From Treponema socranskii subsp. buccale (GTDB lineage Bacteria; Spirochaetota; Spirochaetia; Treponematales; Treponemataceae): a DNA stretch of 64,000 nt. The translations under genes were made by a program, and so were the position numbers. The notes under the pieces were generated by a model. The model made no database searches. It had not been told where the DNA came from and saw only the letters and a program-made list of their open reading frames with translations. Position 1 is the first letter of the stretch; each line of letters starts with the position of its first letter. The stretch is from NCBI RefSeq assembly GCF_024181585.1, contig NZ_CP054258.1:868001-932000 (forward strand). The letters run 5' to 3'. Below, piece after piece: positions 32,171-36,268 of the stretch.

Positions 32171-32929
32171 TTACAATGATTTTTTAGTCCCAACGGTAAT
32201 TCCGAATACTACATATAAAACAATGAACGGAAAACTTATTCCTACGACGATAGGAATATTTGAAAAAATTGCCGTTTTTAACAATTCATCTCGCAAAAAT
32301 ATGTCCGTTCCGATTCCGACAGCAAGGTGAATGCAAGTCAAAACGACAAACGCCTCCATACATTTAAAAAGCACGGTAAAATATTCTTTTCGCTTGGAAT
32401 AAAAATCCGCTTCCGCGCCGACTTGCTGCCGTAACTTTTCTGCTTCACTTTTCGTAATCTCTTTTTTAGTCAATTTAGTATCAATGTCAAAAAATTTTGT
32501 ATTCATTGTATTTGATGAAAATCTGCTCTTTGCTTCCGAGATTTCAGCTGTGTTCTTCATAATGAAAAGTGCGATATAGATAATCATAATAAATTGTGAA
32601 AACATCACTAGAGCTTCTCCCTCCAATTCAAGCGACTTTTGAAACAACCTTACAATAAAAAGATGTTCATCGGATTCTTGTGCTAAAAGCGAAATATGTA
32701 TCAACTGAACGTAGAAAATTAAAGAAAATATTGCACAAAATTCTATCCGATTTATCTTTGTTTTTCTGTTCCGAATCAAAAAACACACAGCAATTGAAAA
32801 CAAATAAAATCCTGCCGACAAGATTTCTATCGGCAATTTCGGATAGGCAACCAACAAAAGCGATAACGGAAAAATTATGACCAGCGCAATCGCGAACAAC
32901 GACTTTAAAATATACAAAAATCGATTCAT
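32171..32929 (-). CDS. stand-alone FlhA/FHIPEP-like membrane domain protein
   Basis: 252 residues from ATG 32929, with GGGG about 6 nt upstream. Six or seven hydrophobic helices surround a charged loop at about 129-183. That loop has the spacing of the FlhA signature: ISEAKSRF (FlhA: ISEVAARF), M and FDID (FlhA: M and AIDAD), then EAEKLRQQVGAEADFY (FlhA: EEAxxRRxxIxxEADFYGAMD). The helices before and after also line up with the FlhA membrane part. The large cytosolic C-domain of FlhA is missing entirely. FlhA is the proton-driven export gate of flagella and type III secretion. This short relative is 21 nt downstream of an unknown gene in an AT-rich island, away from flagellar genes, so its role is probably different. 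Confidence 0.65.
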   Translation of the reverse strand: MNRFLYILKSLFAIALVIIFPLSLLLVAYPKLPIEILSAGFYLFSIAVCFLIRNRKTKINRIEFCAIFSLIFYVQLIHISLLAQESDEHLFIVRLFQKSLELEGEALVMFSQFIMIIYIALFIMKNTAEISEAKSRFSSNTMNTKFFDIDTKLTKKEITKSEAEKLRQQVGAEADFYSKRKEYFTVLFKCMEAFVVLTCIHLAVGIGTDIFLRDELLKTAIFSNIPIVVGISFPFIVLYVVFGITVGTKKSL

Positions 32930-32950
32930 GGTTTTCCCCTTAAAATATTT

Positions 32951-33583
32951 TCATAGCAATTTAATCCATTCCTTAAAAGCATCTAACTGCTGCTGATATG
33001 AATCCGCAAATAAAAACGACTTAAACTCGTCAGTGTCGAATTTTGTTTGATTTTCAAAATAATAAAACCATTCACAACAGTTAAATTTATTATATTCATT
33101 CCGGCAATTACTTTCTTCAATAAGACGAATTATTTTATTTTCCATTGAAAAAAAAGCCGGAAGAGATCGATATATGTGATTCGGCAGAGACCAATCAATT
33201 TTACATAAACGCTTTCTTACTTCAGAAAGAACTTTTTTATCACAAACGCTTATTGAAGAATTTTGTAGAGGTATGTAGTACCACCCTTTCCGAAAATACA
33301 GTTTTTTGCCCAGTTTGCTATTATTTCGATTCCCCTCGATCGCAAGGGAAAGAAAAAATTCTTTTTCACAGCAGGGGCTAAATCCTATAAAGAAATTATT
33401 TGATTTGTAAGTATAATAAAAACCGGCGCCATATTCATCTGCCTTTTTGGTTGTACTGTCCCGTTTGTAGGCTATCAGACTTTGGTCTATTTCGCCCAGA
33501 AATATTTCTTTTATTGAAAATAGTTCTCTAAATAAAGACGGTACAGCGAACAATACTGTTTCCTCACGAGTTAATAATGTCAT
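32951..33583 (-). CDS. unknown accessory protein of the WYL island
   Basis: 210 residues from ATG 33583, which has AAGGAG 8 nt upstream. There is no signal peptide or membrane helix. Many aromatic residues and several Cys occur (CCEKE, NCRNEYNKFNCCEWFYYF). No family recognised. It is co-transcribed with the FlhA-like gene and is preceded by one copy of the CTATC-N7-GATAG palindrome at the likely -35 position. Confidence 0.6.
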   Translation of the reverse strand: MTLLTREETVLFAVPSLFRELFSIKEIFLGEIDQSLIAYKRDSTTKKADEYGAGFYYTYKSNNFFIGFSPCCEKEFFLSLAIEGNRNNSKLGKKLYFRKGWYYIPLQNSSISVCDKKVLSEVRKRLCKIDWSLPNHIYRSLPAFFSMENKIIRLIEESNCRNEYNKFNCCEWFYYFENQTKFDTDEFKSFLFADSYQQQLDAFKEWIKLL

Positions 33584-33633
33584 TTTTATCTCCTTCAGCG
33601 GCTGACTGTTTATAAAAAATATAACACAGGCGG

Positions 33634-33650
33634 CTATCATAGCGTGATAG
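33634..33650. promoter_or_regulatory. palindromic operator copy 1, CTATC-N7-GATAG
   Basis: CTATC (33634-33638), seven nt, GATAG (33646-33650). It lies in the last codons of the HD gene and covers the -35 position for the TATATT box at 33623-33618 that would serve the gene starting at 33583. Confidence 0.6.
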
Positions 33651-34212
33651 CGGAAAAATTATTTTGAAAAAATAATCGTTTGTCGGAATCTCTTGCGATT
33701 GCTTGAATGACAGTATCCAAGGAACGGAAAACTTCCCAGCGTTCACGGTTTGTTACGGCTGCGATTTTTGCGACCGCCAAATCTTCCAAATCCGGCACAC
33801 GACTGCCCTTCCAGATTTTATCGGCAAGTGAAACCGCAAGTTCTTCAAGCGTTGAACTTTCGGACCACAAAGCATGAGAGGCGGCAAATTGTGATTTTTC
33901 TTCGGAAAAACCGAGAGACCGTAAAAGGCGAAAACCTTCCCGTTCGTGCCTATGCCCTTCTTCCGAAAGTTCGTTGATGTAAACGCTTTTTCCTATGTCG
34001 TGACCGGCTGCACCGAATAAGACGAGATCTTTATTGATGTTCAGATTTTTCCACGTACCGTTTAGCTTTTCAAGCAATTTATTTGCAACATCGTGAACAA
34101 GCAGCGAATGAGCGTATAACCTTGGCGGAACTCCGAGAGTACTGAAAACGGATGCAATCTCATTCGGAAGAGAAAGCAGATTTCGACAATTTATATACTG
34201 ATATTCCGCCAT
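33637..34212 (-). CDS. HD-domain phosphohydrolase-like protein
   Basis: 191 residues. All HD-superfamily metal ligands are visible: H40 (LLVHDVAN), H71-D72 (GHDIGKS), H89 (HRHEREG), H113 (ASHALW) and D131 (LADKIWKG). The family hydrolyses phosphate esters of nucleotides or second messengers; the substrate is not predictable. A degenerate operator copy lies at the -35 position upstream. Another palindrome copy lies in its last codons and serves the next gene. Confidence 0.8.
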   Translation of the reverse strand: MAEYQYINCRNLLSLPNEIASVFSTLGVPPRLYAHSLLVHDVANKLLEKLNGTWKNLNINKDLVLFGAAGHDIGKSVYINELSEEGHRHEREGFRLLRSLGFSEEKSQFAASHALWSESSTLEELAVSLADKIWKGSRVPDLEDLAVAKIAAVTNRERWEVFRSLDTVIQAIARDSDKRLFFQNNFSAITL

Positions 34213-34282
34213 TCGAATTTTGTCTTAATGAACAGAGAGTTGATTCCCCTGTTAAGATTTACAGATATAGTAACAGGGGAGA

Positions 34283-34299
34283 ATATCAGATCACGATAG
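34283..34299. promoter_or_regulatory. palindromic operator copy 2, ATATC-N7-GATAG
   Basis: Nine of ten arm positions match the other copies. It is placed about 17 nt upstream of a TATATC -10-like box (34269-34264) for the HD gene. The spacer AGATCAC is close to that of copy 3 (ATATCAC). GATAGCGG followed by AAAAATTATTTT is shared with copy 1. Confidence 0.55.
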
Positions 34300-34307
34300 C
34301 GGAAAAA

Positions 34308-35120
34308 TTATTTTCTGGCTTTATTAAACAAAATCTTCATAACGGGATTGTAATAACAGTACTCGTCGCTCTTGTTTGCGGAGAAGTGAAACAAATCGAT
34401 ATAATCTATTTCTTTGCCGTTCAGATTATATTTGCCGTATGCGGCGACGCCTTCTTTGTTATGAGTAAGTGTTTTATTTTTTGAAAATTCACCGGGGAAG
34501 CATAAATTTATGTAGTTTTCAGCAATCGTACCGTCCCATAAATTGGCTGTTATGATTATATCGGGGTCCAATATTTTTAATTGCTCTTGAAAAAAGTTTG
34601 TTTTTTCCAACTCCGAATCTTTTAAGAAACGATCAACCAAGTCTGTATTAGTCTCCCAATTATCAGGATCGTCATTACTGTATTTTGAAATATTTATACA
34701 GGCGAATCCGAAATCATTAGTTTCACGCATTTTATTCAGTATTTCCAAGGCTGTCGGAATATTTTCGAATGGGAATTCCCCCTCGGTTTTAATGCCGTAT
34801 ACGATATAAAGAATATGGCGCCACCATGAATTTTTGTTGCTAAAATCCTTGTCAAAAAATTCTTTTGTCGTATCTCTAAAGTCATAACCTCCGATGTTTC
34901 TCGTTTCACGACCTATAAAAACCGTTTTTCTTTTTTGATCGAAATATCCGGGGAAAAAACCGTCTTTTGCAAAACAATCTTGAGGGGTTGTTGTTTCCTT
35001 ATTTCCGTTATCAATGGGAGTTTTATTCTTTGATAACTGTTCTATCCATTCGTTCATTAACTTGTCCAATTTAAAGTTTTTTCGTTTTTCAAATTCTGAA
35101 TATTCAAATGTTGAAAGCAT
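34308..35120 (-). CDS. unknown accessory protein, possible uracil-DNA-glycosylase fold
   Basis: 270 residues from ATG 35120, with AGAGGT upstream. It has no signal or membrane segment. The order of predicted strands and motifs is suggestive of the UDG-like fold: TVFIGRETRN, FACINISKYSNDD, then LKILDPDIIITAN, and IDYIDLFHFSAN near the C-terminus. No canonical UDG catalytic motif is evident, so this is a weak structural guess. It is divergent from the WYL regulator gene, and palindrome copy 3 covers its -35 position. Confidence 0.55.
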   Translation of the reverse strand: MLSTFEYSEFEKRKNFKLDKLMNEWIEQLSKNKTPIDNGNKETTTPQDCFAKDGFFPGYFDQKRKTVFIGRETRNIGGYDFRDTTKEFFDKDFSNKNSWWRHILYIVYGIKTEGEFPFENIPTALEILNKMRETNDFGFACINISKYSNDDPDNWETNTDLVDRFLKDSELEKTNFFQEQLKILDPDIIITANLWDGTIAENYINLCFPGEFSKNKTLTHNKEGVAAYGKYNLNGKEIDYIDLFHFSANKSDEYCYYNPVMKILFNKARK

Positions 35121-35141
35121 AGTCTTTTACCTCTTGTTTAA

Positions 35142-35175
35142 ATTATACCACACATTCTCTATCATATCACGATAG
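35142..35175 (-). promoter_or_regulatory. promoter of the 34308 gene with operator copy 3
   Basis: A perfect TATAAT (35147-35142, minus strand). The palindrome CTATC-ATATCAC-GATAG at 35159-35175 covers the spacer and -35 region, so binding there should block polymerase. Confidence 0.6.
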
Positions 35176-35200
35176 TTTCAAAAAAAATAAAAATTATTCA

Positions 35201-35233
35201 CTATCACCGAATGATAGTAATTTATGTTATAAT
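35201..35233 (+). promoter_or_regulatory. promoter of the WYL gene with operator copy 4
   Basis: Palindrome CTATC-ACCGAAT-GATAG at 35201-35217 and TATAAT at 35228-35233, only 6 nt before ATG 35240. The operator sits on the -35 and spacer, which predicts autoregulation and a leaderless transcript. The centres of copies 3 and 4 are 42 bp apart, four helical turns. Confidence 0.6.
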
Positions 35234-35239
35234 ATCATT

Positions 35240-36268
35240 ATGAAGCAAGAAAACAAAAAACAACAGACACGGCAGCTGAACAGAAAAATACTTGAACGGA
35301 TAAATATCATCCATAGAGCAATTAAATCCGGAACTTATCCCGATAATCTGAAGTTACAGCGGCTTTACTGCGAGACGACAGGCTACAGCAAAGTCGGCGA
35401 AGCTACAATTAACCGCGATATCGATATGCTTCGTACTTATTTTCACGCACCTCTGGAATTTGACAGACACAAAGGCGGCTATTATTACAGCAATGCCTTT
35501 GAATTCCCTTTGAATGATATTTCCGCAGAGGATGTTTTTTATCTTTCGGCAGCAAAGACATTACTCTCAAGTTTTGAAGGAAGTCCTATTTATAAATCGA
35601 TTTCCGAAGTTATTGATTTTGTAACGGACACACAGGGCTTGAGCAAAAGTTCTCTTTTAAAGAGAATCGCCATTCCGCCCGTTCCGAAAGTCGTAACAAA
35701 TGAAGATGTTTGGAAAAAAGTTATACGTTCTTTGCAGGAAAACGCAGTTGTCGATTTTGAGTATAGCGGCAGGTGGAACCCGAAATCCGCACGGCGCCGC
35801 GTCGCGCCGTATCAGATCCTTATGGATGAGGGGCTTTGTTTTTTATTCGGCTATGATTTGAATAAAAAAGCTGTGCGCCTTTTCGCTCTGAACCGAATGA
35901 AGAACTATGTTGTTACGGACGAGCATTTTGAAATCCCCGATGATTTTGAATTTTCTGTCTATTGCGGCGGCGGAAAGTTCGGCGCATTTGTGTCGGAAGA
36001 TCCCGTCGATTTTATAATCGATTTTTACGGAGACGCTCGGCCGTATGTAAAAGAGCGTCTTTGGGCGGACAATCAGAAACTTACTGATTTTGAAGATGAA
36101 GAAAAAACACGGATAGAATTTTCTTCAACGCAAGTCCTGAAAGTTATGGAATGGATTTTAGCGCAGGGAGCAAATGCCGTCCCCCGAAGTCCGCAGTGGT
36201 TTGTGGATGATTGGAAGAAGATCGTAAAAGCTATGATGAAAAGGGCGAAAAGCGATATTAATAATTAA
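35240..36268 (+). CDS. WYL-domain transcriptional regulator
   Basis: 342 residues. An N-terminal winged helix (about 12-90, with QRLYCETTGYSKVGEATINR and DIDMLRTYF) is followed by a WYL ligand domain (about 165-240, RRRVAPYQILMDEGLCFLFG and RLFALNRM) and a C-terminal WCX-like extension (to 342). WYL regulators sense ssDNA or nucleotides in DNA-damage and anti-phage settings (PafBC, DriD, BrxR and CapW are known examples). It is the only regulator in the island and the obvious candidate to bind the four CTATC-N7-GATAG palindromes. Confidence 0.85.
   Translation: MKQENKKQQTRQLNRKILERINIIHRAIKSGTYPDNLKLQRLYCETTGYSKVGEATINRDIDMLRTYFHAPLEFDRHKGGYYYSNAFEFPLNDISAEDVFYLSAAKTLLSSFEGSPIYKSISEVIDFVTDTQGLSKSSLLKRIAIPPVPKVVTNEDVWKKVIRSLQENAVVDFEYSGRWNPKSARRRVAPYQILMDEGLCFLFGYDLNKKAVRLFALNRMKNYVVTDEHFEIPDDFEFSVYCGGGKFGAFVSEDPVDFIIDFYGDARPYVKERLWADNQKLTDFEDEEKTRIEFSSTQVLKVMEWILAQGANAVPRSPQWFVDDWKKIVKAMMKRAKSDINN

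Follow-up and report, generated by a model that had tools for sequence, protein, structure and literature searches.

The stretch analysed here (the window) comprises 64,000 nucleotides of Treponema socranskii subsp. buccale (assembly GCF_024181585.1, contig NZ_CP054258.1, positions 868,001 to 932,000), in which a reading made from the letters alone (the sequence-only reading) had placed, between xseA and the ribosomal RNA operon, a small accessory island governed by a WYL-domain regulator. The AT-rich character claimed for this block is borne out, the GC content being 0.32-0.44 along the greater part of the island and 0.48-0.59 in the flanking DNA; the island consists of the WYL regulator gene on the plus strand and four other genes on the minus strand, encoding a conserved 270-aa protein, an HD-domain phosphohydrolase, a hypothetical protein and an FlhA-like membrane protein (Table 1; gene calls in the window, as in all loci compared, are longest-open-reading-frame calls). 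These genes lie behind four promoters, each built around a shared palindromic operator; the promoter module, its recurrence in other genomes and its link to the clade of this WYL protein are established by computation.

The palindrome CTATC-N7-GATAG is exact at three sites and carries one mismatch at the fourth (ATATC..GATAG), and all four stand where the sequence-only reading had located them (33634, 34283, 35159 and 35201). An extended -10 box follows at 10 nt in the promoters of the WYL gene (CTATCACCGAATGATAG-taatttatgt-TATAAT, extended form TGtTATAAT), the HD gene (CTATCGTGATCTGATAT-tctcccctgt-TACTAT; TGtTACTAT) and the hypothetical gene (CTATCACGCTATGATAG-ccgcctgtgt-TATATT; TGtTATATT), and at 11 nt in that of the 270-aa gene (CTATCGTGATATGATAG-agaatgtgtgg-TATAAT; TGgTATAAT). 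The palindrome spans about -39/-40 to -23/-24, so that the position of the -35 hexamer falls inside the N7 between the arms, and no -35 hexamer was found at any of the four window promoters. Since an extended -10 box follows every one of the four palindromes at 10-11 bp, the palindrome takes the place of the -35 box, at the position where the sequence-only reading had expected that box. The membrane gene, 21 bp downstream of the hypothetical gene, probably shares its operon, which leaves four transcription units for five genes. The probable start of the hypothetical gene is 33583 rather than 33640, since its promoter falls inside the longer reading frame and GGAG precedes 33583. The ATG of the WYL gene lies 22 nt downstream of its operator, with the same spacing in more than 12 homologues, and because it coincides with the expected transcription start the WYL mRNA is probably leaderless, a property that would be conserved among the homologues.

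The organism's own genome (2,805,741 bp) has six exact sites, of which three fall inside a 1.6-kb stretch of the island, and none for a reversed control pattern; given three background sites per genome, the probability of at least three sites in 4.1 kb is about 1.4e-8. The refined operator consensus, CTATCA-N5-TGATAG, is to be preferred to CTATC-N7-GATAG, and the three remaining exact sites in the genome, which are without this full form, are likely to be background.

Recurrence of the module was followed in 274 genomes of the family (Treponema-type), many of them fragmented metagenome assemblies, with counts that ignore kinship, and the surroundings of ~60 WYL homologues and of 20 further operator sites were fetched. 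WYL homologues are common in the family. Exact operators number 243 across the 274 genomes, against 14 for the reversed pattern, and the full promoter pattern gives 80 matches in 49 of the genomes, against a single match for its reversed control, a frequency far above random. Of 125 distinct operator sites having no more than one mismatch, 110 lie within 220 bp of a gene start. When 146 pairs of site and gene are considered, 91 have their best -10 box 10 or 11 nt away, compared with a mean of 19.6 and a maximum of 32 after shuffling; where TAnnnT is present at that spacing (81 promoters), TGn also occurs in 50, and a -35 match of at least 4/6 in 5. Of 33 WYL homologues at 50% identity or more, 25 carry an operator in the regulator's own promoter. 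Where a genome encodes a close WYL homologue, exact operators are present in 48 of 62 cases; where it encodes none, in 51 of 212 (odds ratio 10.8, p=4e-14, no correction for relatedness). Together this comparative evidence strongly supports the earlier claim of one self-regulated WYL regulon with shared operators, and none of the findings that the sequence-only reading had named as fatal to its claim turned up. Because three loci in other spirochaete families (L127, L128 and L129), located by promoter pattern alone, carry a WYL homologue, operator promoters and the same gene families, the module has evidently moved or persisted across spirochaete families. The expectation that the five genes would travel together stands in part: the complete set was found only in a near sister genome (G057, locus L040), and other loci hold changing subsets. 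Two different WYL genes, one of them only ~30% identical to the window protein, lie close together at five loci (L065, L070, L095, L140 and L045); these are possibly paired or rival regulators.

The gene content behind the promoter varies from locus to locus. In loci that were selected around WYL genes, the commonest genes behind the module are WYL itself (27 loci), a DnaQ-like exonuclease (13) and an AAA+ ATPase (7), and further operator-driven genes encode PD-(D/E)XK nucleases, a metallophosphoesterase, an SNF2 helicase, an AddAB-like helicase-nuclease pair, RtcB and DUF2779. Small repeated zinc-finger-like proteins (CxxC..C..H, 60-130 aa) also recur (L090:4966-5298, L047:4912-5139, L128:11516-11845). 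Partial copies of core cellular machines form another theme, and include FtsZ (TIGR00065 positions 18-197 of 353), DnaA (profile positions 109-323 of 437, AAA+ only), DnaB (149-433 of 435, the C-domain), DNA polymerase III alpha (DnaE; to ~773 of 1022, with the C-terminus missing), FliG (100-338 of 338, without the N domain) and SMC (the head without coiled coils), with FlhA present as fragments or as a full paralogue. Operators with a -10 box at 10 or 11 nt directly precede FtsZ-, DnaA-, DnaB-, DnaE-, FliG- and FlhA-like genes, not in every member, and some of these operators have two mismatches. The FtsZ-like proteins, found only in G098 (one copy) and G105 (two copies) among 195 genomes, are ~45% identical to ordinary FtsZ and in alignment keep the nucleotide-binding domain and lack the T7 loop and C-terminal domain. 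At L322 the FtsZ-like copy stands behind an exact operator promoter with no WYL gene nearby, and on that account the site is consistent with a regulator acting in trans. An FlhA N-terminal fragment comes after the FliG-like gene at L134; parts of the flagellum would not be expected among the outputs of such a regulon, and the FlhA-like gene of the window belongs to this theme of partial copies.

Among the island's own products, the identities first given to the WYL regulator and the HD phosphohydrolase are upheld by profile searches, which detect WYL and WCX domains in the former (WCX 0.3 bits below its cut-off) and an HD domain in the latter (Pfam, E=1.6e-11). The FlhA-like label is right as to family, and the protein is a fragment: the FHIPEP match covers only ~70 residues (E=3.6e-8), the NCBIfam FlhA model scores 26.6 bits against a cut-off of 772, and the chain stops without the cytosolic half of FlhA. 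Its family has ~19 members among the fetched loci. The hypothetical protein gave no match in the profile search; its C-terminal domain is common to larger proteins at L051, L046 and L043, whose N-termini look like PD-(D/E)XK nucleases by sequence, with no profile match. The 270-aa protein has no match in Pfam, NCBIfam or PDB sequences, and the uracil-DNA glycosylase (UDG) fold once suggested for it finds no support from profile or fold searches, the best UDG fold match having E=0.09 and TM 0.24 on a model of pLDDT 74. A clean empty site at xseA was not found, and the neighbours of xseA vary between species.

Table 1. Features of the WYL island (window coordinates) and of related loci (coordinates preceded by the locus number); full-promoter matches are given in contig coordinates.
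Feature	Position	Strand	Remarks
Operator of WYL promoter, CTATCACCGAATGATAG	35201..35217	+	exact pattern match
-10 box TATAAT of WYL promoter	35228..35233	+	TGt before it; 10 nt past operator; full-promoter match 903201-903233
Operator of 270-aa gene promoter, CTATCGTGATATGATAG	35159..35175	-	exact
-10 box TATAAT of 270-aa gene	35142..35147	-	TGg extended; 11 nt past operator; full-promoter match 903142-903175
Operator of HD promoter, CTATCGTGATCTGATAT	34283..34299	-	one arm position off
-10 box TACTAT of HD promoter	34267..34272	-	TGt extended; 10 nt past operator
Operator of promoter of hypothetical and membrane genes, CTATCACGCTATGATAG	33634..33650	-	exact
-10 box TATATT of hypothetical-gene promoter	33618..33623	-	TGt extended; 10 nt past operator; full-promoter match 901618-901650
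WYL-domain transcription regulator, 342 aa	35240..36268	+	winged helix-turn-helix (wHTH) - helical bundle - WYL - WCX
Conserved 270-aa protein, fold unassigned	34308..35120	-	family members in ~10 WYL loci
HD-domain phosphohydrolase, 191 aa	33637..34212	-	homologues in further WYL loci
Hypothetical protein	32951..33583	-	probable start, revised from promoter and ribosome-binding site
FlhA-like membrane protein fragment, 252 aa	32171..32929	-	FHIPEP residues 92-163 matched
Short FtsZ paralogues, 215-234 aa	L065:2734-3381, L070:5399-6046, L322:7996-8700		GTPase signature intact; WYL-operator islands
FliG paralogue without N domain	L134:8237-9264, L143:7639-8208		behind exact operator promoter
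Full-length FlhA paralogue, 677 aa	L129:6724-8757		one-mismatch operator promoter; genome of a different family, same order
DnaA AAA+ domain-only paralogues, 220 aa	L065:3520-4182, L068:15381-16043		two-mismatch operators with correct -10 spacing

A DriD-like fold is predicted for the WYL protein: in a Foldseek search of the PDB with its AlphaFold model (pLDDT 87.5), the seven best matches were all DriD (E to 2.9e-15, TM 0.59-0.61), followed by PafBC (TM 0.39-0.43) and then by BrxR and CapW (0.29-0.36), and a profile search returned PafB, DriD and CapW, with no match to BrxR. The window holds a single WYL gene, unlike PafBC with its two different WYL chains in one operon or fused double chain, and the palindromic form of the operator suggests that the protein acts as a homodimer.

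Several WYL systems offer points of comparison. DriD is activated by single-stranded DNA (ssDNA) and binds ATACGAC-N7-GTCGTAT overlapping the -35 box, at a fixed distance to the -10 box, in promoters whose -35 matches are poor (PMC12340889); its known targets include didA, which encodes a division inhibitor. The island shares with DriD the wHTH-helical bundle-WYL-WCX fold, an N7 palindrome, a site over the -35 position at fixed -10 distance, a poor -35 and a multi-promoter regulon, and differs in its operator arms (CTATC/GATAG), in the operator carried by the regulator's own promoter, in a regulon of changing accessory genes in islands, in a protein identity of ~15%, and in an ssDNA activation that is putative here. 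The mycobacterial PafBC and SiwR are likewise WYL activators in the same promoter region, at promoters without a proper -35 box (PMC11804915, PMC10693628), PafB acting at -26 and SiwR using an imperfect palindrome between the -35 and -10 boxes; unlike the island's regulator, PafBC is a heterodimer that touches a half-site only together with RNA polymerase, and SiwR governs one operon. BrxR-family genes accompany diverse defence genes, and BrxR represses from downstream of the -10 box (PMC9122601); these regulators, too, stand beside changing defence-like genes and regulate themselves via inverted repeats. They differ in being repressors with 11-bp repeats downstream of the -10 box, whereas the palindromes here lie upstream of it, and in governing their own island, a portable promoter over many scattered gene types not being reported for BrxR. 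CapW, which frees CBASS upon infection and represses from a site over the -10 box (PMC9122588), is a structural relative with a homodimer, a palindrome, and divergent as well as own promoters, and is unlike the present case as a repressor tied to CBASS whose palindrome overlaps the -10 box.

The island probably, though well short of certainly, exemplifies a spirochaete regulon whose genes share a portable promoter and which is run by a DriD-type WYL activator with a nucleic-acid signal. The portable promoter combines A/T tracts with CTATCA-N5-TGATAG, standing where a -35 box would be, and, after 10-11 bp, an extended -10 box (TGnTATAAT). Both arms flanking the -35 position are most likely bound by a homodimeric DriD-type WYL protein, which would help the housekeeping RNA polymerase to start at promoters without a -35 box; the trigger may be the binding in the WYL pocket of a nucleic-acid signal, which is probably ssDNA arising through damage or phage replication, and the triggered protein would also raise its own expression. 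The outputs (nucleases, ATPases and partial core-machine copies) may then either halt the cell or shield it when it is attacked or damaged. A link to stress or ssDNA, part of the sequence-only reading, is reasonable in view of DriD and PafBC as the closest structures.

Several observations weigh against this account. Identity to DriD is low, as noted above; the own promoter of some WYL homologues, including several at 38-40% identity, lacks the operator; and A/T tracts upstream of an extended -10 box might give an active promoter without further help, so that the regulator could be a repressor. Within the ligand pocket, three arginines are kept and speak for the account (R186 in 39 of 39 sequences, R213 in 37 of 39 and R219 in 34 of 39), but the counterpart of PafB R211, one of two arginines essential for ssDNA binding, is A216 here and Ala, Ser or Asn in homologues; because this position is non-arginine although the other three are conserved, ssDNA is a plausible, not an established, ligand.

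Alternatively, the WYL dimer could act in the manner of BrxR or CapW, covering the -35 region and silencing its own gene together with the rest of the island until it is released by a ligand that derives from phage or damage. Both proteins are structural relatives with the same domain order, the operator overlaps the core promoter as well as the regulator's own promoter, and the precedents of BrxR-family genes beside defence genes (PMC9122601) and of CBASS released by CapW on infection (PMC9122588) fit such a role. A repressor, however, needs an otherwise complete promoter and no fixed spacing, whereas here the -35 box is missing and the 10-11 nt are fixed across unrelated genes; BrxR and CapW operators lie at or downstream of the -10 box rather than over the -35 position, and DriD is the better structural fit. 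Repression is accordingly regarded as rather unlikely, if still a serious contender, and because DriD is the best model match and the promoter anatomy fits the activator class, DriD-like activation appears about twice as likely as BrxR/CapW-like repression.

It is improbable that the palindrome marks a different regulator or an alternative sigma factor, with the WYL gene merely another target. In its favour, binding of the palindrome by the WYL protein is putative, 51 genomes have exact operators but no close WYL homologue, and some operators are remote from WYL genes (L322); more distant WYL genes and incomplete assemblies can account for many of these exceptions. Against it, no other gene comes near WYL in frequency behind the module, although the loci were chosen around WYL genes, and co-occurrence with the WYL clade is strong and extends to other families, in which the sites were located by promoter pattern alone (L127-L129). 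That the palindromes arose by chance around an ordinary AT-rich island acquired horizontally, a view for which the short arms (5 bp) and the one imperfect site of the four might speak, is refuted by the comparative counts, given genome-wide rarity, the reversed-pattern control, fixed spacing and cross-species conservation.

The partial core-machine copies invite a more speculative proposal, judged less likely than not: the WYL regulon may be an inducible arsenal of 'poison subunits', in which truncated copies, once WYL is triggered, join and block division, replication and flagella (or serve as decoys for phage inhibitors), alongside nucleases. A defence role of the regulon is plausible, and weaker than the sequence-only reading had claimed: PADLOC returned only generic WYL and weak HD matches for the window proteins, with no confident defence model, and PADLOC families among operator-driven genes numbered 97 vs 96 in flanking control genes of the same loci, showing no enrichment in a crude comparison counted by families, with flanks that also lie in island-like regions. 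The regulon is not a substitute for a missing SOS response, because LexA is present in the organism's own genome and scores over the cut-off in 54 of 58 relatives. A phage or plasmid origin of the regulator was likewise rejected, no close relative of it being found in phage records, viral contigs or plasmids; among the matches listed, promoter-pattern matches in viral contigs (L181-L260) resembled the background of a very large collection.

No description of a spirochaete regulon of this kind was found in the literature searched. The portable promoter constitutes a searchable tag, any gene behind it being predicted to be co-regulated, and so gives a practical route to new stress or defence genes in Treponema, where these are mostly unannotated. 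DriD-type activation, so far described in Caulobacter, is thereby suggested in a second phylum with a changing gene set, and if it is true that truncated copies of core machines inhibit dominantly, they would represent a new general strategy for halting the cell during infection or damage.

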